Shown here in pieces: positions 28,625 to 59,285 of a DNA stretch of 64,000 bases. This DNA is from Nocardia tengchongensis (GTDB lineage Bacteria > Actinomycetota > Actinomycetes > Mycobacteriales > Mycobacteriaceae). The notes beneath the pieces are model-generated. The model was given only the letters and a program-made list of their open reading frames with translations. It was not told the DNA's origin and did no database searches. The stretch is taken from NCBI RefSeq assembly GCF_018362975.1, contig NZ_CP074371.1, positions 7,874,001 through 7,938,000 on the forward strand. The letters are read 5' to 3'. Positions within the stretch are counted from its first letter, which is position 1; each line of letters begins with the position of its first letter. The position numbers were made by a program, and so were the translations under genes.

Positions 28625-31600
28625 ATGACTGCACCGCGACCACAGCCGATACCCCTGTCCGCTGGGCAGCAAGGATTGTGGCTGGCACAAAAATTGAGTC
28701 CGGATGTTCCGATATCCGAGGCGCAATATATCGAGTTCCATGGCGACCTCGACATCGAATTGCTGTCCAGGGTGGCCATTCAAGCCGGTCACGAGTTCCA
28801 GTCCGGGTATCTGAGAGTGGTCGAGACCGACGGTGAGCCGTACCAGGTGTACGACCCGGCGCTCGGCCTGGGGGCCTCGATGATCGATGTCCGTGGTTCG
28901 CCGGATCCCATTGCAGCAGGCGTGGACTGGATGCGCCGGGAGTACACGGCGCCCTTGGAGATGACCCGGGATCCGCTGGTCGCAACGGCAATCGTGCAGG
29001 TGGGGGACCAGGACTACCTGCTGTACTCCAGATGCCATCACGTCGCACTCGACGGCTACGGCGCGATGGTGATCGTGAACCGGATCGCGGCGCTGTACAC
29101 GGCGGGCGTGCAGGGCAGCGCGGCCGAGCCCACCCGCGCGGCCGATATCCAGGCCCTGTACGAGGCCGATCGCAACTACCGAAAGTCGAAGCGGTTCACC
29201 GACGACCAGGCCTACTGGGTGGACAGGCTCGCCGACGTCCGCGAGGAGTCCAGCCTGGCCGCCGGACCGGCGCCCGCGCGCGCCGACAGTGTCGTCGTGA
29301 TCAACGAACTGCCGGCGGCGACGGTGGGGCGGATCGACCGGTCGGCGGAAGCGGTGGGGGCGAGCCCGGCCGCGGTGGTGATCGCCGCTTTCGGCTGCTA
29401 CCTGGCCCGCAAGACCGGCCGCGACGAGGTCCTGGTCAACATTCCGGTATCGGGTCGCACGAGTGCCGTGCTGCGGCGATCCGCGGGGGTGTTCGTCAAC
29501 GTGGTGCCGCTGCCGATCGTCCTCGAGCCGGCCGATACCGTCGCGACGCTGGCGCTGCGGGTGCAGTCCGATCTGGTGGGCGCGCTCCGGCACCAGCGGT
29601 GCGGCCTCACCGACATTCGCGCCGCCATCGGGACCCGGGGCGAGCAGTGCCGCTTCGCGGGCCCGGTCGTGAACGTCATGCTGTTCGACCACAAGCTCCA
29701 GTTCGGTCCGGTCACCGGGGACTTCCATCTCCTCAGCTCCGGCCCGGTCGAGGATGTGCTGGTCGATGTGTATCGGATCGGGGATCCGCCGCGGACGGTT
29801 CTGCACTTCCTGGCGAATCCCAACCTCTACACCGACCGCGAACTGTCCGCGCACTGCACCGGATTCGCGGAGTTCCTCGACGAGTTCGCGGCCGCCGGCT
29901 CGGACACCGAGCTGGAACAGGTCGACCCCCGAAGCGTCGCCGAAGGCGCCGGGATTCGCCGCCGCCGTGAGAATCTGGCGTTCTGGCGGGATGCCCTCGC
30001 GGATCTTCCCGAAGACCTTCCGCTGCCGTTCGATCGGCCGCGGCCGGCGGTGATGTCGAATCGGAGTGCGACAGCGGATTTTTCGTTGAGCGCGGCATTG
30101 GTTCAGGGATTGGAGAATTGCGCACGACAGCATGATTCTTCGTTGTTCACGGTGGTTCACGGTGCGTTGGCGGTATTGCTGGCGCGGATGAGCGGTGGCA
30201 CCGATATTCCGGTCGGCACACCGGTCGACGGTGTGAGCGGGACATTTGCCAATACCGTGGTATTGCGGACCGAGGTCGATCCACGGGAGTCGTTCGCCGA
30301 TTTGCTCGATCGGGTTCGGCAGGTGGATCTGAATGCGTTCGACCATGCCGATATTCCGTTCGACCAAGTGTCGGAGCAGCTATCGCGACAACCCTGGTGC
30401 CAAGTGACGCTGGCGATCGGCCAGGTCAGTGAAATATCGCGCTCCGACCTGCAATTCACCCTGTCGGCACCCCACGGTGAGGATCAGCTGACCGGCGCGG
30501 TCGCCTTCGCCACGGACGTGTTCGATGCCGCGACGATCGATTCCCTTGTCCGTCGGTGGATCCGGATCCTGGAGTCGGTGGCCGCCGATCCGATGGTCCC
30601 GGTCGGGGCGATCGACGTGCTCGACCCCGCCGAGCGAACCGATCTGCTGACCCGGCACGGTGCAGCCCCGGTGGCGCCGGTCACCCTGCCCCAACTGCTG
30701 GCCACCGCGGTCGCGGTGGATCCCGAGGCGGTGGCGATCGTCGCCGGAGGGCGGGAGTCGAGCTACCGCGAAATGGATGAGCGTTCGAATCGGTGGGCTC
30801 GGCAACTGATCGAGCGCGGCATCGGTCCGGAGGATGTCGTCGCGATCGCGGTGCCGCGTTCCGCGGACTCGGTGCTGGCGGTGTGGGCGGTGGCCAAGAC
30901 GGGGGCCGCCTTCCTGCCGATCGATCCGGCCCATCCGGCCGATCGGGTCGCCCACATGCTGGCCGATTCGAGGGCGGCGGTCGGCCTGACCGTGCCATCC
31001 GTGCGCTCCCGGCTACCTGAGGACATCGATTGGCTGACAGCGGATTACCTCGACAATGGCGACGATCGGCCTGTCACCGACGATGATCGGGTGCGTCCGT
31101 CGCGGGTCGACGATATCGCGTATGTCATCTACACCTCCGGATCGACCGGGCTGCCCAAGGGTGTGGCCGTAACCCATCGCGGACTGCACACCTGCGCCGT
31201 CGAACACCGTGATGCCCTGAGCATCGACCCATCCTCCCGCACAATGCATCTGGCCTCACCAAGCTTCGACGTCTCGGTGCTGGAACTGCTGTTCGCGCTG
31301 AGCGCGGGCGCGACGATGGTCGTCGCACCCGGCGACAGCTTCGGCGGCGACGAACTGGCCGAGCTGCTGGACCGCGAACACGTCAGTCATGCGTGTATGA
31401 CGCCCTCGACCCTTTCGACCATCGACCACACCCGGTGGCCCCTACCGGATCTGGGGCATCTGGTGGTCGGTGGCGAAGACTACGGCACCGAGTTGGTCGA
31501 ACGGTGGGGTGGGAATCGGGAACTGTTCAACGAATACGGTCCCACCGAGACCACGATCGCCGTCACGCTGACCTCCTTGGCGGCGCGGGAGCTGGTCACG

Positions 31601-34600
31601 ATCGGCCATCCCCTGCGCGGCGTCTCGGCCTGGATCCTCGATCAGCGGTTGCAGCCGGTGCCGGTGGGTGTGGCCGGTGAGTTGTACATCGCCGGTGGTC
31701 TCTTGGCTCGGGGCTACCACCGACGGGCGGGGCTGACAGCGGAGCGGTTCGTGGCATGCCCATGGCTGCCGGGTGCGCGCATGTACCGGACCGGTGATGT
31801 GGTCCGCTGGTCGCCCGACGGTGCGATCCAACACCTCGGCCGATCCGACTTCCAAGTCAAGATCCGAGGGCTCCGGATCGAACTCGGCGAGATCGATGCC
31901 GTGCTGACCGGTCACGAAAGTGTCGGCTTCGCCGCCACGATCGGCCATCGCGCCGAATCGGGAGCCCAGTCCCTGATCTCGTACGTCGTTGCCGCGCCGG
32001 GACATTCGATCGACACCGTACTGTTGGCGGAACATCTCGCCGATCGTGTTCCGCCCTACATGGTCCCGTCCTCGATCATGGCGCTGGACCGGATCCCGTT
32101 GACGCCGACCGGCAAGCTCGATCGAAAAGCGTTGCCCGAACCGGTGTTCGCCGCCGACAAGCCCTACCGGCCACCCCGAACGCCGCTCGAGCAACTCATC
32201 GCCGAGACCCTCGCCGACGTGCTCCATCTCGACACCGTCGGCATCGACGACTCCTTCTTCGCGCTCGGCGCGGACAGTCTGGTCGCGACCCGCGTCGCGG
32301 CGCGCCTCGGGGCCGTGCTCGGTCTCGAGATCCCGGTGCGGCTGCTGTTCGATGCGACCACGACCGCGGAACTGGCCGCCCGGATGGAACAGGATGCGAC
32401 GACGGGGCGGCGGCCCCGAGCGCCGCTGACCGCCGGCCCGCGCCCCGATCTGGTGCCGTTGGCGCCGGCGCAGCAACGCATGTGGTTCTTCAACCAGTAC
32501 GACACCGGCTCCGGGGCATACAACATGCCGATCGCCCTGCGGCTGCGTGGCGAGCTGAACGTCGAGGCCCTGCGACTGGCGTTGATCGACGTGCTGACCC
32601 GGCACGAATCGCTGCGAACGCGGTACCCGGATCACGACGGGATGCTGATCCAGGTGATCGAATCCGCCGACCACGTGGACCGTGAGCCCACGCAGATCGC
32701 GGTCCCGTTCGGCGAATTGGTCGCGGCGATCACCGAATTCGTGACCGAGGGCTTCGATGTGAGCACCCGGGTGCCGGTGCGGGCCCGGCTGTTCCGGGTC
32801 GCCGATGCCGAGGAGCCGGAACATGTGCTGGCCATCGTGGTGCATCACATCGCCGCGGACGGCTTCTCGATGGCGCCGCTGGCGCGTGACGTGGCGACCG
32901 CGTACGCCTCCCGGATCCGCGGTGAGGTTCCGTCGTGGACACCGCTGCCCGTCCAGTACGCCGACTATGCCCTGTGGCAGCAGGACACCTTGGGTTCGCC
33001 GGACGACCCGGAATCGCTGAGCGCCCGCCAGATTCGCTATTGGACACAAGCTTTGCACGGCGTGCCCGAGGAGCTCGATCTGCCGTTCGACCGGCCGCGG
33101 CCGGCGGTGATGTCGAATCGGGGTGCGACGGCAAGTTTCTCGGTCGGTGCGAGGTTGATCCGAGCCTTGGACGAGGTCGCGCGGCAGCACAATTCGTCGC
33201 TGTTCATGGTGATTCACAGCGCCTTGGCGGTGCTGCTCGCCCGGATGAGCGGGTCCGCCGATATTCCGATCGGCACGCCGGTCGCGGGGCGCGGTGTGGC
33301 GGAGCTCGACGAGATGGTCGGGATGTTCGTCAATACGCTGGTGTTGCGGACCGAGATCGATCCGGACGAGTCCTTCACCGATCTGCTGGGCCGGGTGCGG
33401 CGGACCGATCTGGATGCCTTCGATCATGCCGATGTCCCGTTCGAGCAAGTGGTGGACCACCTGGTCACGCACCGGTCCCAGGCTCGCCATCCGGTGTTCC
33501 AGGTGATGCTGGCGTTCCAGAATCTGGAGCCGGTGCGGCTGGAGCTGCCCGATCTCGAACTGTCGATGGTGGATCTCCCCACCAGCGTGTCCCGCTTCGA
33601 TCTGCAATTCATCCTCGCGCAGGACCACGACGGCGGTGACATCACGGTGACGGTCACCTACGCCACGGATCTGTTCGATGCCGCGACGGTGGATTCCATC
33701 GACCGACGATGGATTCGGATACTCGAGTCGGTGGCTGCCGATCCGGCGGTACCGGTCGGGACGATCGAGGTCCTCGACCCCGCCGAACGAGCCGACCTGC
33801 TCGCCCGCCACGGTCCACCTCCCGTCGCGCCGGTCACGATGCCCGATCTGTTCGCGGCCGCGGTCGGGTTGGATCCCGATGCCGTGGCGATCGTGGCCGG
33901 GGGACGGCAGTGGAGCTACCGGGAGGTGGACGAGCGTTCGAATCGGTGGGCTCGGCAGCTCATTCGGCGCGGGATAGGTCCGGAAGATGTCGTCGCCATC
34001 GCTGTACCGCGTTCGGTGGATTCGGTGCTGGCGGTGTGGGCGGTGGCCAAAACCGGAGCCGCGTTCCTGCCGATCGATCCGAGCAGCCCGGTCGAACGCA
34101 TCGGTCACATCGTGGGCGACGCGGGAGCGGTTGCCGGTCTGACGGTGGCATCGGCACGTTCTCGGCTGCCCGATGACGATATCGCTTGGCTGACACCGGA
34201 TTACCTCGATGCGGGCGACGATCTCCCGGTCACCGACAGTGATCGGGTCCGTCCGCTGCGGGTCGACGACATCGCCTACGTCATCTACACCTCCGGATCG
34301 ACCGGACTACCCAAGGGCGTCGCGGTCACCCATCGCGGATTGAACAACGGCACCACCGAACGCCGCACCGCACTGAGCATCGAACCCCACAGCCGCACAT
34401 TGCATCTGGCCGCACCGAGCTTCGATGTCGCGGTGATGGAGATGCTGTTGCCGTTGAGTTCGGGCGCGGCGATGATCGTCGCACCCGGCGATGCCGCGGG
34501 CGGCGACGCCCTGGCAGAACTCCTCGACCGTGAACACGTCACCCACGCCTTGGTCACCCCCTCCGTCCTGTCCACGATCGACGACACTCGCTGGCCGTTG

Positions 34601-36391
34601 CCGGATCTGGGGCATCTGGTCGTCGGTGGCGAAAACTGTGGCACCGAACTGGTCGAGCGCTGGGGTGGGAATCGCCGGCTGGTGAACGACTACGGACCCA
34701 CCGAGACCACCATCGCCGCGATCGTGAGTTCCCCGCTGGTAGCCGGTGAATCGGTCACGATCGGTCGCCCGATGCCGGGCGCCTCGGCGTGGGTGCTGGA
34801 TCGGCGGTTGCAGCCGGTGCCGGTGGGTGTGGCCGGTGAGTTGTACATCGCCGGTGGTCTCTTGGCTCGGGGCTACCACCGACGGGCGGGGCTGACAGCG
34901 GAGCGGTTCGTGGCATGCCCATGGCTGCCGGGTGCGCGCATGTACCGGACCGGTGATGTGGTCCGCTGGTCGCCCGACGGTGCGATCCAACACCTCGGCC
35001 GATCCGACTTCCAAGTCAAGATCCGAGGGCTCCGGATCGAACTCGGCGAGATCGATGCCGTGCTGACCGGTCACGAAAGTGTCGGCTTCGCCGCCACGAT
35101 CGGCCATCGCGCCGAATCGGGAGCCCAGTCCCTGATCTCGTACGTCGTTGCCACACCCGGGCATTCGATCGACACCACGCTGGTGACGCAGTATCTCGCC
35201 GATCACGTGCCCTCGTACATGGTTCCGGCCTCGATCATGGTGCTGGACCGGATCCCCTTGACCCCGACCGGCAAGCTCGATCGAAAAGCGTTGCCCGAAC
35301 CGGTGTTCGCCGCCGACAAGCCCTATCGGGCGCCCCGGACGCCGCTCGAGCAACTCATCGCCGAGGCCTTCGCCGACGTGCTCCATCTCGACACCGTCGG
35401 CATCGACGACTCCTTCTTCGCGCTCGGCGGCGACAGCATCATGTCGATCCAGTTGGTGACCCGGGCCCGAGCGGCAGGCGTGGTGTTCTCCCCCCGCGAC
35501 GTGTTCGAGCGCACGACGGTCGCCAGACTCGCCGAGGTCGCCGTCCGCGAGGATGCCTCGGCGACAGCGCTTCCGGCGGAACCGGCCGGCGCGGGCGTGG
35601 GACCGCTACCGCTGACGCCGATCATGCGCGAGTTGCTCGAGCGGGCCGGGTCGGCGTCCGGCCGGTACGCGCAGGCGATGATGCTGGGTCTGCCGGCGGG
35701 AGTCGACCGGCGGCAGCTCGCCGACGCCGTGCAGGCGGTCCTCGATCGGCACGACATGCTGCGCGCGCGATTGACCCAGGACTCCGACGGGCAGTGGGTA
35801 TGGGAGGTGTTGCCCGCCGGAGCAATTCGCGCTGACGACGTTCTGGTTCAGGTGACCGGGCAGGCAGGGCTGGGGCCCGACGAGTTCCATACGCTCGCGT
35901 CGGCCGAGCTGGATGCCGCCGCGGACCGGCTCGATCCGGGAGCCGGGATCGTGACACAGGTGGTCTGGTTCGACCCCGTGGACCCGGCGGAGCCGGGCAC
36001 AGTGCTCGTGGTCGTGCATCGTTCAGCGATCGATCGCGTTTCCTGGCAGGCGCTGGCGCCTGATCTCACGGCCGCGTGGGCGCGGACCGGCGCCCGGGAG
36101 CCACTCGATTCGGCCCCGACCGGAACGTCCATGCGCCGGTGGGCGCACGGTCTGGTCGAGGCGGCCCGACGTCCGGAGCGCGCCGCCGAGCTCGAACTCT
36201 GGCAGGCGATGACCGCCGGAGACGACCCGGCGATCGGGTCACGGCCGCTCGACCCCGCGATCGACGTTGTCGCCACCGCCCATACGGTCCGGGTCGAGGT
36301 GGACCCCGAGGTGACCGCTGCCCTGCTGACCACCGTGCCCGCGGCCTTCCACGGCATGTGCACGACGGGCTGCTGGCCACCTTGGCGGTAA
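28625..36391 (+). CDS. NRPS part 1: C1, half-C, A1, T1, C2, A2, T2, start of E1
   Basis: 2,588 codons. C1 (1-430) resembles EntF's starter C domain and has intact CHHVALDG. Residues 445-670 are only the C-terminal half of a second C domain, without HHxxxDG. A1 is about 690-1165 ([20 protein letters not shown]), T1 about 1184-1258 (GADSL). C2 is about 1275-1715 (VHHIAADG), A2 about 1736-2228 (NDYGPTETT), T2 GGDSI. E1 begins about 2325 and carries [10 protein letters not shown] at 2465. By-eye specificity residues are A1 DVLCVGEIAK and A2 DVMLVGDIAK; I recognise neither code. The reading frame ends 35 bases after the break. The true protein continues in the next frame. Confidence 0.88.
31645..31993 (+). 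repeat. Exact direct repeat, copy 1 (A1 C-terminal subdomain)
   Basis: 349 bp, base-for-base identical to 34804-35152, offset 3,159 bp. Covers motifs A6-A8 and most of the A-sub domain of A1. First mismatches occur immediately outside both ends. Confidence 0.9.
34804..35152 (+). repeat. Exact direct repeat, copy 2 (A2 C-terminal subdomain)
   Basis: Second copy of the 349-bp repeat, in A2. The substrate-binding cores just upstream differ between A1 and A2, so identity is limited to the lid subdomain. Confidence 0.9.
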
Positions 36392-38928
36392 CCATCGCGC
36401 GATGGCGGCGCACGGCAACCGGGAGCCCATCCGCGGACGTGACGATCCGCCTCGAAGGCGACGGCCGCGTGGAAGGCGTTGTCCCGGACTCGGATCCGTC
36501 GCGGACGGTCGGCTGGTTCGCCACAAGCTTCCCGATGCGCCTGGATCTTTCGGACATCGATCTCGACGACGCGTACACGGGCGGACCCGCGCTCGGGTCG
36601 GCGGTCAAGGCCGTCAAGGAACAGCTCCGCGCCGTCCCGGACCACGGTCTGGGTTACGGCCTGCTGCGGTATCTCAACGAGGACACCGGGCCGATCCTCG
36701 CGGCCGTGCCGCCGCCGCAGATCGCGTTCACCTACCTCGGCCGCGGCGACACGGGAACCGCCGAGGCGATACCGGCGGCCGGATGGGTACCGGTGGACAT
36801 CGGCGATGCCGCGGCACAGCTGGCCGGTACCCGGCATCCGGATATGCCGGTGCCGGCGGTATTCGACATCAATGCCCTCGTCGTGGACGAGGCGAGCGGG
36901 CCACGGCTGCGGATGATCTGGTCGTATCCCGCGGAGCTCCTCACCGCCGACGCGGTGCGCGAGGTCGCGCAATCGTGGCGCTCGACCCTGACCGCGCTGG
37001 CCAGACACGTCCGCCACGCCGGGGCCGGAGGACGAACACCGTCGGATCTGACGCTGGCCGGGATCGGGCAATCCGCGATCGAACGACTCGAGGACCGGTA
37101 TCCGGCCCTGAGCGACGTCTGGCCACTGGCCCCGCTGCAGCAGGGGCTGCTGTTCCACGCACTGGTGTCGGAGCAGTCGGTGGATGCCTACATCACGCAG
37201 CTGGTGCTCGAGCTGCGCGGCCGGGTCGATGCGGAGCGGCTGCACCGAGCCGTCCGGGTGCTGCTCGCCCGGCACGCGAACCTGCGCGCCGCGTTCGTCA
37301 CCGACGCCGACGCCGGACCGGTCCAGGTGGTCGACGACGCCGCCGAGGCGCCATGGACGGAGCGGGACCTGTCCGGGCTGGATGACAGTGCGCGCGAACA
37401 CGAGTGGGCGCTGCTGATGGCCGCGGACCGCGCCACCCGGTTCGACCCGGCTCGGGCCCCGCTGCTCCGCTGGACGCTGGCGACCACCGGCCCCGGACAG
37501 TTCCGGCTGATGCTGACCAATCATCACTTGCTGCTCGACGGCTGGTCGACACCGCTGCTGCTGCAGGAGCTGCTGGTGCTCTACGCCGGCGACTGCGATG
37601 CCACGCTGCTGCCGCCGGTCCGCCCCTACCGAGACTTCCTCACCTGGGTCGCCCGGCAGGACCCGGCCGCCTCGCTCGACGCGTGGGCCCGGGCCTTCGA
37701 CGGCGCCGACGAGCCGACCCTGCTGGCCGCGGCCGATCCGCGCCGCCGCTACACCGAATCCCGTGAGGTGCTCGGCGAACTCACCGAGGCGCAGACCGCG
37801 GCGCTCACCGGTCGCGCCCGGTCGCGCGGCATCACGCTCAACACCATGATCGAGGCGGCGTGGGCGATCGTGCTGGGCGCGTGGACATCCCGCACCGACG
37901 TGACCTTCGGCGCCGTGGTCTCGGGACGAACCCCGCAGGTCGCGGGTATCGAATCGATGGTCGGACTGTTCATCAACACGGTGCCGGTGCGCGTCCGGCT
38001 CGACGCCACCGAGACCCTCGGGCAATTGCTCGACCGCATACAGGCCGAGCAGGCCGCCCTGCTCGATCACCAGTTCGTCGGCCTGGCCGACATCGAGCGA
38101 GCGGCCGGGCCGGGAGCGGCGTTCGACACGATGACGGTGTTCGAGTCCTTCCCGGTCGACCGGCACGGATTGACCGCGGACACCGACATCGCCGGCCTGC
38201 GGCTGGTCGACGTGACCGGCGCCGACGCGGCCCACTATCCGCTGGGCGTGGTCGGGCGGGTCGACTCGCGACTGCACCTTTCGATCAAGTACCTGCCGGA
38301 GCTCTTCGACCAGGACACCATCGCGGCGACCCTGCGGCGGATCCTGGACGTGCTGGGCGACATCGCCGCCGACCCGGAGCTGCCGGTGGCCCGGCTGCAG
38401 CTCCTCTCCCCGGAGGAATACGGCGAACTGGCGCCGGTGGCAGGCGATCCCGCGATACCGGAACGGGTACTGCCGGAGCTCTTCGCGGCGACGGTGGCCC
38501 GGGATCCGGGTGCCGTGGCGGTGATGTCCGAAGACCGGCAGTGGACCTATGGCGAGCTGGACGCGGAGTCGAATCGGCTGGCGCGCTTGCTGATCGGTCG
38601 AGGAGCCGGACCGGAGACGAGTGTCGCGATCGGGTTGCCGCGCTGCTACGAGTCGGTGCTCGCGGTGTGGGCGGTGGCGCAGTCGGGGGCGGCATTCGTC
38701 CCGGTGGATCCCGCAATCCGGGCAGCCGGATCCAGCACATGCTCGACGATTCGGGCGTCCAGACCGGAATCACGCTGTCGCAGTGGCGGAATCAGCTACC
38801 CGATTCGGTGCGCTGGCTGGTCCTCGACGAGCCGGCGGTCGCGGCGGAGCTGGCGGGGTTGCCGGCCACGCCGATCACCGACGCCGAGCGAATCCGTCCG
38901 GTCCGGGTCGATCAGCCCGCGTACGTGA
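36356..38928 (+). CDS. NRPS part 2: rest of E1, C3, N-terminal A3
   Basis: Continues E1 from [15 protein letters not shown]. The E motifs [11 protein letters not shown] and YGLLRYLN are kept, but EGHGR reads EGDGR. C3 (about 37110-38420) has intact [10 protein letters not shown] and the opening [12 protein letters not shown] typical of C domains that accept a D-configured donor after an E domain. A3 begins at about 38480 ([28 protein letters not shown]) and runs to VPVDPA, where the frame breaks again. Read on without correction it ends in unrelated sequence by 38928. This stretch is not an independent gene. Confidence 0.82.
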
Positions 38929-41900
38929 TCTACACGTCCGGCTCGACGGGCGTGCCGAAGGGCGTGGTGGTCTCGCATCGGGGGCTGGCGAACCTGGCGG
39001 CCGAGCAGTGCTCGCGGTTCGACCTCGGGCCGGGCGCGCGGGTGCTGCATGCCGCATCGCCCAGTTTCGACGCGGCGGTCCTGGAACAGCTCTGGGCGTT
39101 CGCGTCGGGCGGGCGGCTGGTGATCGCGCCGCCGACCGTCCTCGGCGGAACCGAACTGGCGCAGCTCATTTCGCAGCACTCGGTGACCCACGCGGCGCTG
39201 ACTCCCACCGCCCTGGGCACGGTCGACCCGGCCGGGCTGGGAACCCTCGCGACCGTTGTGATCGGTGGCGAGGCGCCCCCGCCACGGCTGGTGTCGCAGT
39301 GGGCGCCGGGCCGGAAACTGATCAACACCTACGGGCCGGCGGAGGCCACCATCCAGACCGATGCCGGCGCGCCGATGGTGCCGGGTGAGCCGCCGACGAT
39401 CGGCGGGCCGATCCGCGGCGTCGGCGAGCTCGTGCTCGACGCGTGGCTGCGTCCGGTGCCGCTCGGAGTCGTCGGCGAGTTGTACCTCACCGGTCCGGGA
39501 CTGGCTCGCGGCTACCGCAACCGGATGGATCTGACCGCGTCGCGGTTCGTCGCCGACCCGTTCTCGAACCACGGGCAGCGCATGTACCGGACCGGGGATC
39601 TGGTGCGGTGGCTGCGGCGACCGGACGGCGAGCTGACCCTCGACTACGTCGGGCGGACGGACTTCCAGGTCAAGATTCGCGGCTTCCGCATCGAGCTCGG
39701 CGACGTCGAGACCGGTCTGCTGGCCTGCCCCGGCGTGGCTCGCGCGGTCGCGACCGTCCATCACGGCTCCACCACCGGCGATCGGTTGGTCGGGTACGTG
39801 GTGCCCGAGCCCGGCGCCGTCCTGGACCCGGGCGCGGTTCTCGCGTCCGCCGAGGAACGATTGGCCCCGCACCTGGTGCCGGCGACGGTGATGGTGCTCG
39901 ACACGCTGCCGACGACCGAGACCGGCAAGATCGACCGCTTGGCCCTGCCCGCGCCCGACTTCGGCACGGGCCGAACCGAATTCAGGGCGCCGGTCACCGA
40001 GACCGAGATCACGCTCGCCGGACTGTTCGCCGAGATCCTGGGGATCGACAGGATCGGGCTCGACGACTCGTTCTTCGCCCTCGGCGGCGACAGCATCATG
40101 TCGATCCAGTTGGTGACGCGGGCCAAGGCGGCGGGGCTGGTGCTGTCCGTGCGCGAGGTGTTCGAGCAGAAAACCGTTGCCGCACTGGCCCGGAGCGCCG
40201 TCCGCGACAGCGCCGCGGCGGCCGCCCTGCCGGCCGAACTGCCCGGCGGCGGCGTGGGTTCGATGCCGACGACACCGATCATGGGCTGGATGTTCGAGCG
40301 CGGCGAGTTCGACAGCTTCTGCCAGTGGGTGACGCTCACACTGCCGACCGGCATCGACCGCACCGCCATAGCGGCGACCGTGCAAGCCGTGATCGATCAT
40401 CACGACATGCTGCGGGCCCGGCTACTGCCCGACCCCGCACACCCGTCGGGCTGGGCGGTGCAGACGCAGCCGGCCGAGGTATCCGCCGACGGACTCATCC
40501 GGCAGGTGCGGGTGGACGCCGCGCCGGGCAGCAGTGCGTTCGACGCGATCGCCGACGCCGAGGCACGCGCGGCCGCCGACCGCCTCGACCCCGCCGCGGG
40601 AATCGTGCTGCAGTTGGTCTGGTTCGACTGCGCCGCCGAACCGGGCCGGCTCCTGGTCGTCGCGCACCACCTGGTGGTGGACGGAGTCTCCTGGCGAATC
40701 CTCGTTCCCGACCTGATGGTGGCCGGGGCTCAGGTGAGTGCCGGGCAACCGCCGCGGCTCGAGCCGGTCGGAACGTCGATGCGGCGCTGGGCGCACGCGC
40801 TCGACACCGCGGCCGCCGACCTCGACGAACTCGACTGGTGGCGTGGCACTCTCGCCGCCCCGGATCCGCCGATCGGGACGCGCCCGCTCGATCCGGTCGT
40901 GGACGCGCAGTCCACCGTCGCCACCGTTCGGGTGACGCTGCCCGTCGACGTGACCCGTGCCGTACTGACCACGCTGCCCCGCGCGTTCCGCGGGAGTGTG
41001 GACGATGCCCTCGTCGCCGGGCTCGCACTGGCGTTGACTCGATGGCGAAACCGGCACGGCGACACCGGCACCCACGCGCTGCTCACGCTCGAAAGCCACG
41101 GCCGCGACGACACGGTTCTGCCCGGCGCCGACCTCACCCGCACCGTCGGCTGGTTCACCACCACCTACCCGGTGCGGCTCGACCTGTCCGATATCGACAT
41201 CGACGACGCGTTCGCCGTGGGCCCCGCCGCCGGGGCCGTCGTCAAATCGGTCAAGGAACAACTCCGGCGTGTTCCCGGCCACGGGATCGGCTACGGCCTG
41301 CTGCGCTACCTCGACGCCGACACCGCCCGCATCCTGGGCGCGATGCCCGACCCGCAGGTGAGTTTCAACTATCTCGGCCGGTTCGACACCATTCCGGACT
41401 CGTTGCGCGACACCGGGTGGATGCCCGCCGGCGGCGATACCGCGGGCGGCGTACAGCCCCCCGACGCGGCCGCGGCCGCCCTGCTGGCCGTCAACGCCGT
41501 CACCGAGAACACGCCGGACGGACCCGCCCTGACCGCGGCCTGGGACTACCCGGCCGGACCGATCTCCGCCGCCGAGGTCACCGAGCTCGCGGAACTGTGG
41601 CGCGACGCGGTGGCCGCGCTCGCGGACCACGCGTCCCGGCCCGGCGCCGGCGGGCTGACGCCCAGCGATATCGAACTCGCCGACCTGGACCAGGCCGCGA
41701 TCGAACGGCTCGAGGCCGAATACCCGGAGCTGGAAGACATCTGGTCGCTGACGCCGCTGCAGGCGGGGCTGTTGTTCCACGCCCAGCTCGCCGCGGGCGC
41801 CCGCGACGACTACATTGTGCAACTCCGGATGGATCTCGGTGGGCGCGTCGACGCGGACCGGTTACACCGCGCCGCACAGACTCTGCTCGGACGGCACCCG

Positions 41901-44900
41901 AACCTGCGCACCTTGTTCGTTCAGGACAGCGCCGGGGAACCGGTCCAGATCGTGCACCGCCGGGTCGAGACGCCGTTCACTCATCTCGACATCACCGAGA
42001 ACGCCGACGCCGCAGCCGAACTCGATCGGCTCATGAACGCCGACCGCCACTTCGACATGACCGCGGCGCCGCTGCTGCGCCTGACCCTGATCAACACCGC
42101 CCCGCAGCGGTACACGCTGCTGCTGAGCATGCACCACATCCTGATCGACGGCTGGTCCACCCCACTGCTGATCCGGGAACTGCTGATCCTCTACGCCGGC
42201 GACAGCGACCCCGGCGCGCTGGCCCCGGTGCCGCCCTACCGCGACTACCTGGTGTGGCTGCGGGCCCAGGATCAGCGGGCGGCGGAAGCGGCGTGGACCC
42301 GGGCACTCGAGGGCCTCACCGAGCCGACCCTGCTGGCGCGCACGGGCTACCGCCGCGGCACCGACGCCGCGCGGGAAGTCCGGGTACAGCTGAGCGAGAA
42401 CCGCACCGCGGAGCTGGTCGCGGCGGCCCAACGGCAGGAGAGCACCCTCAATACCGTCGTCCAGGCCGCCTGGGCGATCGTGCTCGCGAACGCCACGGCG
42501 CGCGACGATGTCGTGTTCGGCGCCACCGTCTCCGGCCGCCCGCCACAGCTGCCCGGCATCGAATCGATGATCGGCCTGTTCGTCAACACCGTGCCCGTCC
42601 GGGTCCGGCTCGACGACGGCGAGAGTCTGGCCCGGCTGCTGCGACGAGTCCAGGCCGAACAGGCCGCACTGCTCGACCACGACCATCTCGGACTCGCCCG
42701 GATCCAGCGGGCGACCGGGTTCGGCGCGATGTTCGACACCGTGACCGTCTTCGAGTCCTACCCGGTCGACTCGGCCGGGCTGTCCGCGGACACCGACATC
42801 GCCGGGATGCACGTCCTCGACGTGCGGGGACGGGACGCCGCGCACTACCCGCTCGGCCTGATCGTCCATCTCGGCGCCCGGCTGGAGCTGATCTTCGAAT
42901 ACCTGCCCGAACTGTTCACCGGGGACGAGATCGACGCCCTGGCCGGGCGGATGGTGCGCGTGCTCGACGCCGTCATCGACGACATCGATCGCTCACCGCT
43001 ACGTGTCCAGTTGCTGACGCCGGAGGAGCTGACCGGCTTCGTACCCGTTCGGGGTGCGGCCGACGTGGCGACATCGACACTGCCGCAGGTGTTGTCGGAC
43101 GCGGCGAGGTCCGAGTCCGACGCGTTGGTCTGCGATGGGGAACGGTTGTCCTATCGCGAACTCGACGAAGTCTCGAACCGGTGGGCGCGGATACTGATCG
43201 ACGCGGGCGCGGGACCGGAATCGTTCGTGGCCGTAGCATTACCGCGCTCCATCGACGCCATGATCGCCGTGTGGTCGGTCGCCAAGACCGGCGCCGCGTT
43301 CGTGCAGATCGACCCGGCCCAGCCCGAGGAACGGACCAGCGGCATTCTCGCCGACGCGGGTCCCGTCGTCGGGCTGACCGCCGAGACCTATCGAGAGCGG
43401 CTGCCGGAGCACATCTCCTGGCTCATCCTCGACAGTCCCGATTTCGCGGCGAAGGCAATATCGGTGCCCACCAACGCAATCGACGACGGCGAGCGCACCG
43501 CCGCGCTGCGGCCGGAGCATCCGGCCTACCTGATCTACACCTCGGGCTCGACCGGGATCCCCAAGGGCGTCGTGGTCACCCACACCGGGCTCGCGAATCT
43601 CGCCGCCGAGGCGCGGGAGCAGGTCGGCCTCACCGCGTCCTCGCGCATGCTGGCCGCGGCCTCACCGAGCTTCGACGTGTCGATCCTGGAATGGCTCAGC
43701 GCCGCGGCCGCCGGAGCCACGCTGGTGCTCGCGCCGGAGCACGTGGTCGCGGGCGACGAACTGGCCGAACGGATCTCGGCCGCGGGCGTCACCCATGCGG
43801 CCTGTACCCCGACCGTGCTCGCGTCATTGCGCCCCGACGGACTCGACACTCTCCACACCTTGCTCCTCGGTGGCGAGATCTGCTCACCGGATCTGGCGGC
43901 CCGATGGGCCGGGGGCCGCACGCTGATCAACGCCTATGGGACCACCGAGACCACCATCCAATGCTGCACCGGCGTCCTCGAGACCACGACCGCGGACGGT
44001 CCGCCGCCGATCGGCGGTCCGGCCCGCGGGTTCTCCGCCGTCGTGCTCGACCGCAGACTGCGTCCGGTCCCGCCCGGAGTGCCCGGCGAACTGTATCTGT
44101 CCGGACCGGGCATCGCCCGCGGCTACCACGGGCAATTCGCGCTCACGGCAGCACGATTCGTCCCCGACCCGTACGGGCCGGCCGGGTCCCGCATGTACCG
44201 CACCGGCGATCTGGCCGCCTGGACCGCCGACCGGAGACTGCGCTACCTGGGCCGCAGCGATCTGCAGATCAAGGTCAACGGCCATCGCATCGAACCCGGC
44301 GACATCGAAACCGCGTTGTGCGGCCACCCCGACGTCGCCCGGGCGGCTGTCGCGGTCCACACCCGGCCCGACGGAATCGACCAGCTCACCGGGTCTGTGG
44401 TGCCCGCCCCGGATACGACACCGGATGTGGTGACGCTGACCAGGTACCTCGCCGGCCGACTGCCCACCCACATGATCCCGACCGCCATCATGACGCTCGA
44501 CCGGATTCCGCTCACGGCCACCGGCAAACTCGATCGCAACGCCCTGCCCGTACCCGACCTGCGCGGCCGGTCCCGGTTCCGGGCGCCGTCCACACCGCTC
44601 GAGGCCACCGTGTGTGAAGCCTTCGGCCGCACCCTGGATCTCGAACGCATCGGGGTCGACGACGGCTTCTTCGCCCTCGGCGGCAACTCGCTGGCCGCCA
44701 CCCAGCTGGTGGCGGGGCTCGCGGAGTCCACCGGTGTCACCGTGCCGCTGCAGTGGCTGTTCACCGATCCGACGCCGCAAGCGCTGGCCCGCCGCATCGA
44801 GGACCGTCGCGACGCCGGGCCGGAGGTCGACGGACAGGATCTCACGGGCGCGCTCGCGGTGATGCTGCCGCTGCGCGCGGCCGGCACCGAGCCGCCGCTG

Positions 44901-45674
44901 TTCTGCATCCACCCGGCGATCGGATTGGCTTGGGGTTTCAGCGGATTGGTGCAGCACCTCGATCCCGACCAGCCCGTCCGAGGGCTGCAGTCCCCCGCGC
45001 TGACCGACCCCACCGTGCGGTTCGACACCCTCGACGAGCTCGCCGCCCGCTACGTGCAGGAACTCCGGACCGTCCAACCGCACGGCCCCTACCATCTGCT
45101 CGGCTATTCGCTCGGCGGCACCATCGCGCACGCCATGGCCGTCCGACTCCGCCGCGACGGCGACTCCGTCGCCACCCTGGCCATGATGGACACCCGCGTC
45201 GTCACCTCCGACAGCGTGCGGGCTCCGACACCCTCGGTGGCGACGATGCTCGCCGAGTTCGGCGGTATCGCGGTTCCGGACGGCCCCGCCGAACTGACCG
45301 TCGAGGCCGCGACCGAGTTGCTGCACCGGCAAGGCGGATTGTTCACCGAGGTGACCGCCGAGCATGTGGTGCGCCTGCAAGCCGACTACACCCGGCTGAT
45401 CGACCTCACCTTCGAACACCGGGCCGGACAGTTCGACGGTGACCTGCTCTACTTCAGCGCCGCCGACGACCCCGTCGGCGGGGCTGCTCCCGCTCGCGCC
45501 TGGCACACCTACGTCACCGGGCGGATCACCGAGCACCGGGTTCCCGTCCGCCACGAACGGATGACCGATCGAGATGCGCTGCGCGCCATCGGCGTCGTTC
45601 TCACCGAGCACTTCCGATCCACCCGCACCGCCCCCACGGAGTCACAAACACCAGCAAGGACAAGCCGATCATGA
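38711..45674 (+). CDS. NRPS part 3: rest of A3, T3, E2, C4, A4, T4, TE
   Basis: Resumes A3 at [14 protein letters not shown], with [11 protein letters not shown] and NTYGPAEAT; by-eye code DALAVGTIQK. T3 is GGDSIMSIQ (about 40085). E2 has intact [10 protein letters not shown] and ESHGRD, so module 3 should epimerise. C4 has [11 protein letters not shown]4 has [11 protein letters not shown] but NAYGTTETT (Thr for the usual Pro); code DVLALGAIQK. T4 is GGNSLAAT. The type I TE (about 44880-45640) has GYSLGG, a following Asp in MMDTR and a late His in VRHERMTD. It would hydrolyse or cyclise the tetrapeptide. Confidence 0.88.
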
Positions 45675-46339
45675 ACAGCGACCGAATCGTCGGAACACGT
45701 TCCGGCGTCGAACCAGTCAACCTGTTCGACCCCGACATCGCAGCCGCTGACGGCTGGTACCCGCGGGCTGACGAACTGCGCCGGTGGATGGTCGAATACC
45801 TGTGCCGAACTCACCCCGACCTGGGCCGGCCCGGCGCCGTCTGTCCCTACACCAGTCACGCCATCACCCTGCAATCACTGTGGGCGGCGTTCATCAAGGG
45901 GCGCGATATCGACCGCGGGCACATCGCCGCGATAGTCGCCGACCTGTACGACCTGTTCCCCAGCCTGCCACCCCGGAACGAACCCGATTCCAGACTCAAA
46001 GCCGTCCTCGCGGTCTTCCCGGACCTCACCGAGTACGCCGACATCGAAGCCGTTCAGCGCGAACAGAAGACCAGATTCGTCGAACAGGGTCTGATGCTCG
46101 GACAGTTCTACCCCGGCTGCACCGTCGCGGGCCTGCACAACCCGTCCTTCCACGCCCTCGACGCCCCCCTGCCCATGCTCGCCATCCGCTACATGGCCCC
46201 CACCGACTTCCCATTCCTCAGCTCACGCCACGAATGGATGGACTTCTACCTCCACAACTTCGCCCCCGAAATCCCCAAGTTCATCGCCACCACCATGTCC
46301 GACATGCTCGTCCAGGACCCCGACGCGCCGCCCGAATAG
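45671..46339 (+). CDS. NRPS-linked protein of unknown function (possibly DUF6875-like)
   Basis: 222 aa. Its ATG overlaps the NRPS stop by 4 bases (ATGA), so it is translated with the synthetase. Visible conserved-looking blocks are [13 protein letters not shown] (about 53-65), [17 protein letters not shown] (about 145-161) and [15 protein letters not shown] (about 193-207). There is no signal peptide, membrane segment or recognisable cofactor motif. Two Cys and several His/Tyr in these blocks could be catalytic or metal-binding. Its sequence reminds me of the DUF6875 family seen next to biosynthetic genes, but I cannot confirm that. A tailoring or starter-supply role is inference. Confidence 0.75.
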
Positions 46340-54759: not shown

Positions 54760-56640
54760 TCAGTCGATGTGGTCGGGGAAGGCCTGCTGGCGGTGACCAC
54801 CCCGGAGGGTGCCCTCCAGATAGGCCGCCTTGCAGGCGCGGCGGGCGATCTTGCCGCTGGAGGTGCGGGGAATCGACCCGGCGGGGACCAGCAGCAGGTC
54901 CCGGACGGTGACGCCGTGGCGCTTGGCGATGGCGGCCCGGACGGTCTCGGTGATCGGGTCCGGGTCGAGTTTGGCCGCGCCGGTGCCACGTTCGGCCACG
55001 ATGACCAGTTGCTCGGCTCCGGTGGCAGGGGTCGCGCCGTTGACCGTGACGACTTCGTCGGGGAGTTGATCGCCCGCGACCGAGAAGGCGGCCACGAACC
55101 CGGGGCGCAGCGCGGTGCTGGACTCCTGGGCGGAGTACTCCAGATCCTGCGGATAGTGGTTGCGCCCGTCCACGATCACCAGATCCTTGACGCGGCCGGT
55201 GATGAACAGCTCGCCGTCGTAGTACGCGCCGAAATCGCCGGTGCGCATCCAGTTCGCCTCCGGCTCGGTGCCTTCCGCGTGGCTCTCGGCCTGCCGGACG
55301 GTGATCCGGTTGTGGAAGGTGGCCTCACTCTCCTGGGGGCGGCCCCAGTAGCCGCGGCCGATGTTGGCGCCGTGCAACCAGATCTCGCCGACCTCGCCCT
55401 CGGGCTTCTCCGCGCCGGTCTCGGGATCCACGATGGCTGCCCACTGCGACAGCGCCACATACCCGCAGGACACCTGGGAGACAGCGTTGTCCGCGTGCTC
55501 GTCGACCTCGACCATGCGCCCGGCATTGAGCCTGGTGCGGTCCACCCAGACCGTGCGGGCCTGGTCCTCACGTTTGGTGGCGGAGACGAACAGGGTGGCC
55601 TCGGCCATGCCGTAGCAGGGCTTGATCGCGGTCTTGGGCAGCCCGTAGGGGGCGAAGGCCTCGTTGAACTTCCGCATGGAGGTCACCGACACCGGCTCGC
55701 TGCCGTTGATCAGGCCGATCACATTGGACAGGTCCAATTCCTCACCGGCCTTGGGCAATCCGCGCGCCGCCGCGTGCTCGAAGGCGAAATTGGGTGCGGC
55801 GGCGAAGATCTCGGCGCCGTCCTCCTGGGCGGCCAATTCCTTGATCCAGCGGTGCGGCCGGCGCACGAAGGCGCTGGGCGACATGATGGTGATGTACTTG
55901 CCGCCCAGGGTGGGCAGGATGACGGTCAGCAGTCCCATGTCATGGAACAGCGGCAGCCAGGTGACGCCGCGGGCCTTCTCGGTGATGCCGATGGCGTCGA
56001 TCATCTGCAGCAGGTTGGTGCCGACCGCCCGGTGGGTGATCTCCACACCGGCCGGGATGCGGGTCGAGCCCGAGGTGTACTGCAGGTAGGCGACATCGTC
56101 CATCTGCAGGTGGGGGCGCACCCAGCTCTCGCCCACACCGTCCGGGATGGCCTCGACCGCGATGATGCGCGGACGTTGCGGCGCGGGCAGGTGTTTGAAG
56201 ATCTCGCGCACGCCGGCCGCCGCCGAGCCGACCGTCAGGATGGCCGACGGTGTGCAGTCCTCGAGCACCGCGTGCAGCCGGTCGGTGTGGCCCTGCTCGT
56301 CCGGATCGAACAGCGGCACCGCGATATTGCCCGCGTACACCGAGGCGTACATGGCCACGATGTAGTCCAGGCCCTGCGGGGCGAGGATGGCGACGCGGTC
56401 ACCCGGCTGCGTGACCTGCTGCAGCCGGGCGGCTACCGCACGCAGCCGGACACCGAAGCGGTTCCACGTGATGTCGTGGTACTCACCGTCGCGTTCACGC
56501 GAATAGTCGATATAGCGGTAGGCGAGCTCGTCCCCGTTGGCCGCGACATGCTTGTCGACCAGGTCGATCATGGTCTGGTTGTCAGGGATCTTGATGTTGC
56601 CGTGCTCGTCCAGATAGTCATCGAAGGTCTCGCCGATCAT
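54760..56640 (-). CDS. Long-chain fatty-acyl-AMP ligase (FAAL), FadD32-like
   Basis: 626 aa. Adenylation core YLQYTSGSTRIPAGVEITH, SWLPLFHDMGL-type FAAL motif (TWLPLFHDMGLLTV), CYGMAEATLFVS, RTGDFGAYYDGELFITGR, DGRNHYPQDLEYSAQE and SIPRTSSGKIARRACKAAYL. The whole length aligns in my memory with mycobacterial FadD32, which activates meromycolic acid as acyl-AMP and passes it to Pks13. Here the neighbour is a KAS gene, not pks13, so this may be a paralogue feeding another acceptor. Start ATG 56640. Confidence 0.9.
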   Translation of the reverse strand: MIGETFDDYLDEHGNIKIPDNQTMIDLVDKHVAANGDELAYRYIDYSRERDGEYHDITWNRFGVRLRAVAARLQQVTQPGDRVAILAPQGLDYIVAMYASVYAGNIAVPLFDPDEQGHTDRLHAVLEDCTPSAILTVGSAAAGVREIFKHLPAPQRPRIIAVEAIPDGVGESWVRPHLQMDDVAYLQYTSGSTRIPAGVEITHRAVGTNLLQMIDAIGITEKARGVTWLPLFHDMGLLTVILPTLGGKYITIMSPSAFVRRPHRWIKELAAQEDGAEIFAAAPNFAFEHAAARGLPKAGEELDLSNVIGLINGSEPVSVTSMRKFNEAFAPYGLPKTAIKPCYGMAEATLFVSATKREDQARTVWVDRTRLNAGRMVEVDEHADNAVSQVSCGYVALSQWAAIVDPETGAEKPEGEVGEIWLHGANIGRGYWGRPQESEATFHNRITVRQAESHAEGTEPEANWMRTGDFGAYYDGELFITGRVKDLVIVDGRNHYPQDLEYSAQESSTALRPGFVAAFSVAGDQLPDEVVTVNGATPATGAEQLVIVAERGTGAAKLDPDPITETVRAAIAKRHGVTVRDLLLVPAGSIPRTSSGKIARRACKAAYLEGTLRGGHRQQAFPDHID

Positions 56641-56749
56641 TCCCTATCCTTTTTCAGCTCGCGGTCCGTCAGAACCGCGCAGTGACACCGAACAAAGATC
56701 GACACGAAAGCCCGAATGTAGCTGGGGGCTTGGGGACTCTAGCAGAGGG

Positions 56750-57994
56750 TCAGTACCTGCCGAAAGCGATAGCAACATTGTGCCCGCCGAAACCGAACGA
56801 GTTGTTCAGGGCGTAGTCGTAGCGGCCCGGGCGGGCTTGGCCTTTCACCACGTCGAGATCGATCTCGGGGTCCTGGTTCTCCAAATTCAGTGTGGCAGGG
56901 ATGATTCCGTCCCGGACGCTGAGCACGGTGATGACCGACTCCAGGGCGCCGACCGCACCGATGGAATGCCCGAGGGCGGACTTGGGCGCATACACCGCAG
57001 CATGGTTGCCAACAGCTTGCTGGATGGCGTTCGCCTCCGCGGTGTCGCCGATCGGGGTGGCGGTGGCGTGGGCATTGATATGCGTGACATCGGATTTGGA
57101 CAGCCCCGCGAACTCCATCGCGCGGCTCATGGCGCGAGCCGCGCCGGTGCCCTCGGGATCCGGTGCGACCAGGTGGAATCCGTCGGAGGTGACGCCCGCG
57201 CCCATGATCCGGGCGTGGATGGTGGCGCCGCGCGCCTTCGCGTGCTCCTCGGTCTCGATGACCATGAGCGCGCCCGCCTCACCGAAGACGAAGCCGTCGC
57301 GGTCCAGATCGAAGGGCCGCGAGGCGCCCTTGGGGTCGTGATTGCGGGTGCTCATGGCCCGCATCATGGAGAACCCGGCGATGGGCAGGGCCTGGATGGA
57401 GCCCTCCACGCCGCCGGTGACCACGATGTCGGCGTCGCCCATGACGACCGTGCGCCAGGCGTTCGCGATCGCCTCGGAACCGGACGAACAAGCCGAAACA
57501 GGCGTGGACACACCGGCCCTCGCGCCCAGTTCGACCCCGACGCAGGCGGCCGCGCCGTTCGGCATCACGGCCTGCACGGTGTTCGGAAGCACCTTGCGGT
57601 AGCCGCCGTTGATCAGCTTGTCGCGCGTGGTGATCAGCATTTCCGCGCCGCCCAGGCCGGTGCCGATGGAGACGGCCAGCCGGTCCTTGTCCACCTCCGG
57701 CGCCCCGGCGTTGCCCCAGACCTCGCGGCTCAGCACCACCGCCATCTGCTCGACGTAGGACAGGCGGCGCGCCTCGCCCTTGGATAACTGATCGGTGGGC
57801 GACACCTTGAGGTGTCCGCCGATGCGGACCGGGAGGCCGAAGTCGTCGAGGAAGCTGTCCTCGAGCACGTCGATTCCGCTCTCGCCGTTGAGTAGACCCT
57901 TCCACGTCGAGTCGACATCTCCCGCGATCGAGGTGGTCGCGGCGAGCGCGGTGACAACGACATTGGGGTATTGCCGGCGGTTGGGCGTCTGCAT
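56750..57994 (-). CDS. Beta-ketoacyl-ACP synthase II, KasA/KasB-like
   Basis: 414 aa. Catalytic Cys in [11 protein letters not shown], His in [12 protein letters not shown] and [15 protein letters not shown], and Gly-rich [10 protein letters not shown] at the end: a complete Cys-His-His site. Family enzymes elongate long-chain acyl-AcpM in FAS-II toward meromycolate. Start ATG 57994 with GGAGAG eight bases upstream. The next gene is the FAAL (109-base gap, same strand). Upstream sequence holds a TTGACA and a palindrome. Confidence 0.9.
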
Positions 57995-58054: not shown

Positions 58055-58286
58055 GGGCGGGTGGAAACCAGCGAGCGGGCCCGGCCGTCAATACTCCGGC
58101 GGGGGATGAGGCCAATCTTCGGCGAACTGAGCTAGATTATCCGAGGCGAAGCCGACCAGTCCCATTAAGCGACACGCGGGCATCCCTTTTCAATCGCCAG
58201 GGCGCCTTTCGCCGCGGCGGCGATCGCCGGATCTCCCGAGCATCATTCCCGCAGTGCCGAGCCATTTCAAGGGAGGGCATACGATC

Positions 58287-59285
58287 GTGGCCAGGAGTCT
58301 CACGCAGTTGGAGCTGCTCATCGAGCTGGAACCGATTGCCGAGCAGAACGTGAACCGCCATCTATCGATGGCCAAGGACTGGCATCCGCACGACTACGTC
58401 CCGTGGGACCACGGTCGCAACTTCGCAGCAATGGACGGCGCCGACTGGGATCCCACGCAATCGGCGCTCAGCGAGGTCGCCAAGGCCGCCATGATCACCA
58501 ATCTGCTGACCGAGGACAACCTTCCCAGCTACCATCGGGAGATCGCGGAGAACTTCTCCCAGGACGGGCCGTGGGGCACCTGGGTGGGCCGTTGGACCGC
58601 CGAGGAGAACCGGCACGGAATCGTGATCCGGGACTACCTGGTGGTCACCCGCGGCGTGGATCCGGTCGCGCTGGAACAGGCGCGCATGACGCACATGACG
58701 AACGGATACAACCCAGCGCATTTGATCAGAAAGCACTCCGACACCCAGTTCATCGCCGCCGATGCCGGATTCATGCATTCCGTCGCTTATGTCACCTTTC
58801 AGGAATTGGCGACTCGCGTTTCGCACCGCAATACCGGCAAAGCGTGCCATGACCCCATAGCGGACCGCATGTTGCAGCGCATCGCCGCCGACGAGAACCT
58901 CCACATGATCTTCTATCGCGACATGTGCGGTGCGGCCCTGGACCTCTCACCCGACCAGGCCATGGATGCCATCGCCAATGTCGTTCTCGCCTTCCAGATG
59001 CCGGGCATGGGCATGCCCAATTTCCGCCGCAACGGCGTCCTGATGGCCAAACACGGCATCTACGACCTGCGCCAGCACCTGGAGGAAGTGCTGGTACCCA
59101 ACCTCAAGAAGTGGAACATCTTCGAGCGCACCGACTTCGGGTCCGCCGGCGAACGCCGCCGCAACGAGGTCGGCGAGTACCTGGACAAACTCGAGAAGGA
59201 CGTCGTCCGCTTCGAGGAACAGCGCGACAAGGCGCTGGCCCGCGACGCGCGGCGCGACCCCACCCCGCCGGTATTCATCGGCTGA
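58287..59285 (+). CDS. Acyl-ACP desaturase, DesA-like
   Basis: 332 aa from GTG 58287, preceded by GGGAGGG. Ferritin-like di-iron ligands appear as TEDNLPSYHRE, TAEENRHG (ExxH) and ADENLH (ExxH), the plant-type soluble stearoyl-ACP desaturase set. Overall similarity to M. tuberculosis DesA1/DesA2 is clear (NRHLSMAKDWHPHDYVPW, SHRNTGKACHDPIAD). It introduces a double bond into an ACP-bound acyl chain, using ferredoxin and O2, for membrane lipid or meromycolate desaturation. Confidence 0.9.
   Translation: MARSLTQLELLIELEPIAEQNVNRHLSMAKDWHPHDYVPWDHGRNFAAMDGADWDPTQSALSEVAKAAMITNLLTEDNLPSYHREIAENFSQDGPWGTWVGRWTAEENRHGIVIRDYLVVTRGVDPVALEQARMTHMTNGYNPAHLIRKHSDTQFIAADAGFMHSVAYVTFQELATRVSHRNTGKACHDPIADRMLQRIAADENLHMIFYRDMCGAALDLSPDQAMDAIANVVLAFQMPGMGMPNFRRNGVLMAKHGIYDLRQHLEEVLVPNLKKWNIFERTDFGSAGERRRNEVGEYLDKLEKDVVRFEEQRDKALARDARRDPTPPVFIG

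Follow-up and report, generated by a model that had tools for sequence, protein, structure and literature searches.

The question raised by the locus described here, in Nocardia tengchongensis, is what a small protein contributes to the peptide assembly line whose gene it directly follows. The locus lies in a 64,000-nucleotide stretch (contig NZ_CP074371.1, positions 7,874,001 to 7,938,000; hereafter the window, numbered from its first letter) of a single-contig 8.0-Mb genome. One four-module nonribosomal peptide synthetase (NRPS) is encoded at 28625–45674 across three overlapping frames, and is followed by a gene for a protein of 222 amino acids (aa) whose start overlaps the NRPS stop by four bases (ATGA). 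Both the coupling and an NRPS opening with an EntF-like starter condensation domain had been put forward in an original prediction and were confirmed, Pfam finding condensation (C), adenylation (A), thiolation (T), epimerase-type C (E) and thioesterase (TE) domains. The same prediction took the small protein to be of unknown kind, which does not hold, since it belongs to DUF6875 (PF21780), described in the part available to us of PMC13307353 (2026) as a family of heme proteins able to oxidise L-tryptophan. We regard it as an evenly balanced proposition that the NRPS makes an acyl- or lipo-tetrapeptide and that a heme enzyme dedicated to it, and coupled to it at translation, oxidises an amino acid loaded by module 3. 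The parts of the locus are as follows.

28625–36391, plus strand: NRPS piece 1 (2588 aa, frame 2), with starter C, partial C, A1, T1, C2, A2, T2 and the first part of E2
28646–29899, plus strand: C1, starter-type condensation domain with motif HHVALDG, conserved in orthologues (limits by eye)
29963–30694, plus strand: partial C domain, C-terminal lobe only, without HHxxxDG (limits by eye)
30722–32134, plus strand: A1, code DVLCVGEIA (by alignment)
33860–35269, plus strand: A2, code DVMLVGDIA (end by eye)
35582–37050, plus strand: E2, epimerase-type domain with HRxxxDRxSW instead of HHxxxDGxSW, containing the first frame break (limits by eye)
36358–38928, plus strand: NRPS piece 2 (frame 1), with the rest of E2, C3 and the start of A3
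38739–45674, plus strand: NRPS piece 3 (frame 0), with A3 (DALAVGTIQ), T3, E3, C4, A4 (DVLALGAIQ), T4 and TE
44892–45575, plus strand: thioesterase domain with motif GYSLGG (Pfam)
45671–46339, plus strand: DUF6875 (PF21780) protein, 222 aa, Cys58 in GRPGAVCPY, a predicted thiolate-heme oxygenase

The DUF6875 protein scores 213.5 bits over residues 34–204 (curated cut-off 24.5 bits), and PF21780 was its only Pfam match at E <= 0.001; YqcI/YcgG (PF08892) was not matched. Another member of the family is ZigI, the 'cytochrome P422' enzyme of the zigralone pathway, for which C-7 hydroxylation is expected (PMC13307353, available part). ZigI acts in a meroterpenoid pathway, among whose genes as listed in that part there is no NRPS, whereas the gene described here is coupled to one and encodes an enzyme of predicted substrate. 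The motif GRxGx[VL]CP[YF] is present in 34 of 34 DUF6875 copies, and the DUF6875 alignment comprised 57 proteins chosen among 120 of the 159 found. By VIA-align, the predicted model is matched best by AglA, a thiolate-heme hydroxylase that takes an amino acid or peptide and, with the YqcI/YcgG heme N-hydroxylases (PMC12866846), resembles the DUF6875 protein in its conserved N-terminal cysteine; the two proteins differ in that identity is approximately 10% and AglA hydroxylates a guanidine. Other comparisons are less favourable to this resemblance: in the Foldseek ranking AglA comes after an unrelated DNase-like toxin subunit, in second place (E 0.021), and HHalign of DUF6875 against seven Nocardia YqcI/YcgG proteins gave a non-significant probability of 1.4, the profile being too shallow. 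Searches of the Protein Data Bank (PDB) using DUF6875 gave no match or one at chance level, and a search with one Nocardia YqcI/YcgG protein did not have AglA among its matches. Matches of the model to RNase E and DNase-like structures, one of them placed above AglA by Foldseek, were taken as chance. The DUF6875 protein probably binds heme, through the invariant Cys58.

Of 148 genomes from the genus, 100 carry DUF6875 (E <= 1e-20); it was also found in 23 of a sample of 60 genomes of relatives (own genome included) and in three of 396 genomes sampled across the phylum, all three from the same genus and one being the own genome. An A-domain motif lies within 8 kb of 31 of the 34 copies in the 60-genome sample, the others being G048:C117, G018:C100 and G032:C4. 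There are at least three arrangements, with DUF6875 downstream of the NRPS described here, upstream of a second NRPS type or downstream of a third. The second type is present in the own genome (3325374–3339723), where DUF6875 again stands directly beside an NRPS that opens with a starter-like C domain, but upstream rather than downstream, approximately 40% identical and with other A codes (DALCSGSVA etc.). In a first tree the A domains beside DUF6875 seemed to group by themselves, the background being only the best-scoring own-genome A domains; this claim was dropped because 23 of 54 background own-genome A domains fell inside in a fuller tree, so that the A domains neighbouring DUF6875 do not form their own clade, which does not help our proposal. 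Among unusual forms of the gene, a DUF6875 domain is fused to the C-terminal end of a 2592-aa NRPS protein (L032 14932–15582, genome G022) and a second copy sits within a 2685-aa open frame (G452:C4:659286–659801). At G025:C10:55902–59458 an NRPS gene is preceded by two DUF6875 genes that are separated by a further gene, and copies approximately 48% identical at G505:C53:4915–5556 and G513:C4:416902–417543 have one internal TAG each.

Conservation of the pair in other Nocardia, proposed as a check in the original prediction, was found in part. Orthologues of the starter C domain with at least 64% identity number 39, spread over 34 of the 148 genomes, the next matches dropping to 46%; the 39 omit one partial match (G015:C572), and removal of eight cut by contig ends left 31 loci (assigned by hand), including G519, whose gene is frame-split. 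At 20 of the 31, DUF6875 lies directly downstream on the same strand; at 11 it does not, and the pairing is therefore not obligatory. The 11 comprise G006, in which a 41%-identical DUF6875 stands beside the NRPS in opposite orientation, and ten loci with no DUF6875 within the approximately 20 kb stretch read, one of which (G497C3) has a 63%-identical copy on the opposite strand, approximately 8.6 kb beyond the NRPS. In G550 and in G503, one NRPS copy is accompanied by DUF6875 and another is not, and in G513 the gene is beside the other NRPS copy. Two-module versions with only the equivalents of modules 3 and 4 were seen at G504:C1:1914651 and G513:C1:108451, with DUF6875 directly downstream in G504 and not in G513:C1. 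The nearest named relatives at the locus are Nocardia niigatensis, N. aurantiaca and N. jiangxiensis.

Presence of the gene goes with the adenylation pocket of module 3. The A3 code is D[AV][LM]A-x-G-x-[IV]-[QE] in 21 of 22 loci with DUF6875, the exception being G469, and in the ten loci without it A3 reads DALFVGGIM (five), DALAVGTIL (four) or DALAVGTIQ (one, G513C1). The 22 include G009, whose NRPS gene is spread over two contigs but has A3 on the same contig as DUF6875, and G006, which was counted as gene-bearing in the A3 tables and tests on account of the 41%-identical copy beside it. Glutamine or glutamate thus occupies A3 position 331 in 21 of 22 gene-bearing loci and in one of the ten others (Fisher p 3e-6, ignoring relatedness), in a comparison that was conceived after the data had been seen. 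Among all variable code positions of A1 to A4 (26 rows, omitting G517, G534 and G519, with one code unread, G504 and G513C1, with two modules, and the partial G009), A3-331 is the most informative on gene presence, followed by A2-322 and A2-299. On a tree of the E3-to-TE region, gene presence changes five times; A3 follows in three to four of the five independent pairs, stays unchanged in one to two and never goes the opposite way. A C1 tree gives two to three of four independent pairs in agreement and none against.

We consider that this assembly line may work as follows. Its domain order is starter C; C-terminal lobe of a second C; A1-T1; C2-A2-T2-E2; C3-A3-T3-E3; C4-A4-T4-TE. C1 would take an acyl group, presumably from the common acyl-CoA/ACP pool, and join it to residue 1, after which modules 2 to 4 would add three residues, E3 would turn residue 3 into a D-residue, as its domain type suggests, and TE would release the peptide. 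The amino acid oxidised by the DUF6875 enzyme would most probably be an aromatic one such as tryptophan, and module 3, with its Gln or Glu 331 in nearly all gene-bearing loci, would load the oxidised product. Tryptophan is perhaps the substrate, by analogy with the chemistry described for the family, and a hydroxyl group gained by oxidation would be compatible with the polar side chain of the A3 pocket. Alignment reproduced the four codes previously read by eye (DVLCVGEIA, DVMLVGDIA, DALAVGTIQ and DVLALGAIQ; nine letters, the tenth, K, lying outside the comparison), and the earlier statement that they match nothing recognised agrees with the literature searched, where none of the four occurred. 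Literature searches with six similar codes found none, those with six codes taken as tryptophan-like gave one unrelated paper, and among published Nocardia NRPS studies, judged by title or the start of the abstract, none was recognised as describing this locus.

Two features of the first half of the NRPS had gone unmentioned in the original prediction. Modules 1 and 2 form a tandem repeat of approximately 3.15 kb, 76–96% alike in four sampled stretches (one stretch of 300 nt being 96% identical), and the leftover C lobe before A1, present in all six aligned N-termini (window and five relatives), is explained by this origin. E2 lacks the HHxxxDGxSW motif of active epimerisation domains, and with the second histidine of the motif lost, epimerisation of residue 2 by the usual route is unlikely. 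Among the 28 family loci whose motif could be read, this histidine is replaced (HR or HQ) in 12, window included (hand count), both with and without DUF6875. The best PDB matches of C3 include the C domains of McyB, SrfA-C and TycB, which we take to be of types accepting D-residues.

The absence of a loading gene had been considered anomalous, and this we do not support. C1 is in the first module, has an intact HHxxxDG and is closest to C domains accepting acyl or aryl groups, as expected of a starter domain: the closest solved structures are 7c1k, which we take to be the starter C domain of rhizomide synthetase RzmA, 6n8e (ObiF1), 5du9 (CDA-1) and 5ja1 (EntF), the acyl or aryl donor types of these entries likewise being our assumption. 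Starter C domains can draw on the cellular acyl-CoA/ACP pool, as for rhizomide and surfactin, and a missing loading gene is therefore unremarkable. The Nocardia locus resembles lipoinitiating NRPSs such as RzmA, CDA and EntF in its first-module C domain with HHxxxDG, best matched among solved structures by theirs, and differs in the leftover C lobe after C1 and in having no dedicated ligase directly beside it. That no ligase adjoins the NRPS is true of the near neighbourhood, but one gene of this type lies further off.

54760–56640, minus strand: AMP-binding, FAAL-like gene, 8.4 kb downstream of the locus

This gene adjoins a beta-ketoacyl synthase gene, the two spanning 54760–57994 on the minus strand, and is a possible acyl supplier. 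As a dedicated ligase it was rejected, being the best window match of no gene read around G001, G027, G030, G031 and G006 or downstream of G009. Other AMP-binding-like genes occur in G030, approximately 7 kb ahead of the NRPS, and in G006, approximately 14 kb downstream.

A reading compatible with the others is that the window copy is a decaying pseudogene and the pair is idle in this strain, to which we attach a little less than an even chance. The frame breaks suspected earlier are present in the assembly, from frame 2 to frame 1 near 36,371–36,400 (in E2) and from frame 1 to frame 0 near 38,685–38,715 (in A3). Long homopolymer runs were considered as their cause: there is no mononucleotide run of at least five at the first break and one (of five) at the second. 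Of 68 NRPS A-domain places in the own genome, six are split by frame (hand count, window A3 included), further split adenylation domains having been noted near 481, 487, 2114, 2127, 2134 and 3757 kb; such splits elsewhere among the NRPS genes of this genome are as compatible with assembly error as with decay, and the window breaks may have either origin. Against decay, dN is well below dS in each of the three pieces compared with two relatives (dN 0.08–0.13, dS 0.28–0.57), third-position GC remains high in the coding frame of every piece and the DUF6875 gene is intact. The original prediction had named absence from related genomes together with frame breaks as counting against the locus, and this is not what was found: the NRPS is one open frame of 5661–5736 aa in five relatives, and with intact orthologues of approximately 5,700 aa in other Nocardia the locus itself is real.

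Less probable, and in our view unlikely although to be taken seriously, is that the enzyme acts after assembly, on residue 1, 2 or 4, or makes the acyl or aryl starter, the co-variation with A3 merely reflecting relatedness of the clusters. Such a reading gains from the fact that two A2 positions, 299 and 322, likewise co-vary with the gene, that the independent-pair test on the E3-to-TE tree (p 0.125–0.25) misses 0.05, that DUF6875 also precedes NRPSs of other types, whose codes differ, and that two loci break the A3 rule, G469 having DUF6875 without Gln or Glu at 331 and G497C3 having DALFVGGIM despite its 63%-identical copy. Apart from the position ahead of other NRPS types, these observations also weigh against oxidation for module 3, as do the glutamine at 331 in G513C1 without a neighbouring DUF6875, the five of 20 same-strand loci in which DUF6875 begins after the NRPS stop with no overlap, and G550 and G503, where the enzyme product may occur in cells whose second A3 differs, given that copies with and without the gene coexist. 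The likeness of C3 to D-acceptors also clashes with a disabled E2, and the frame-broken window NRPS may be non-functional. Relatedness alone, however, does not readily account for A3-331 ranking first among all variable code positions, or for the independent pairs, of which three to four of five agree and none goes against.

It is improbable that DUF6875 is a structural or MbtH-like NRPS helper rather than an oxygenase: proximity to A-domain motifs in the 60-genome sample and the fusion in L032 would suit a helper, but heme oxidation has been described for the family (PMC13307353, available part), the cysteine motif is invariant, the predicted model is AglA-like and 11 of 31 loci manage without the gene at that place.

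Elsewhere in the window, an Rfam ASdes antisense small RNA (72.8 bits) was matched at 58605–58672 on the minus strand, inside a fatty acid desaturase gene (58254–59285) of the opposite strand.

Oxidation of an amino acid for module 3 by the coupled enzyme would give a likely job to a gene annotated as 'unknown', and would link a heme family described in 2025–2026 to nonribosomal peptides in Nocardia. More broadly, and more tentatively, leaning somewhat against it on present evidence, we suggest that several Nocardia NRPS lineages may each have their own coupled P422-type heme enzyme, which here would supply an oxidised aromatic residue for module 3, and that repeated loss of the enzyme may have been matched by a change of A3 residue 331 from Gln or Glu to Met or Leu. 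Species naturally with and without DUF6875 offer ready comparisons for the building block that is changed, and DUF6875 beside an NRPS is a candidate marker in genome mining for peptides with an oxidised residue. If the proposal is true, product chemistry in these bacteria would switch through the loss of one gene and the retuning of one pocket.
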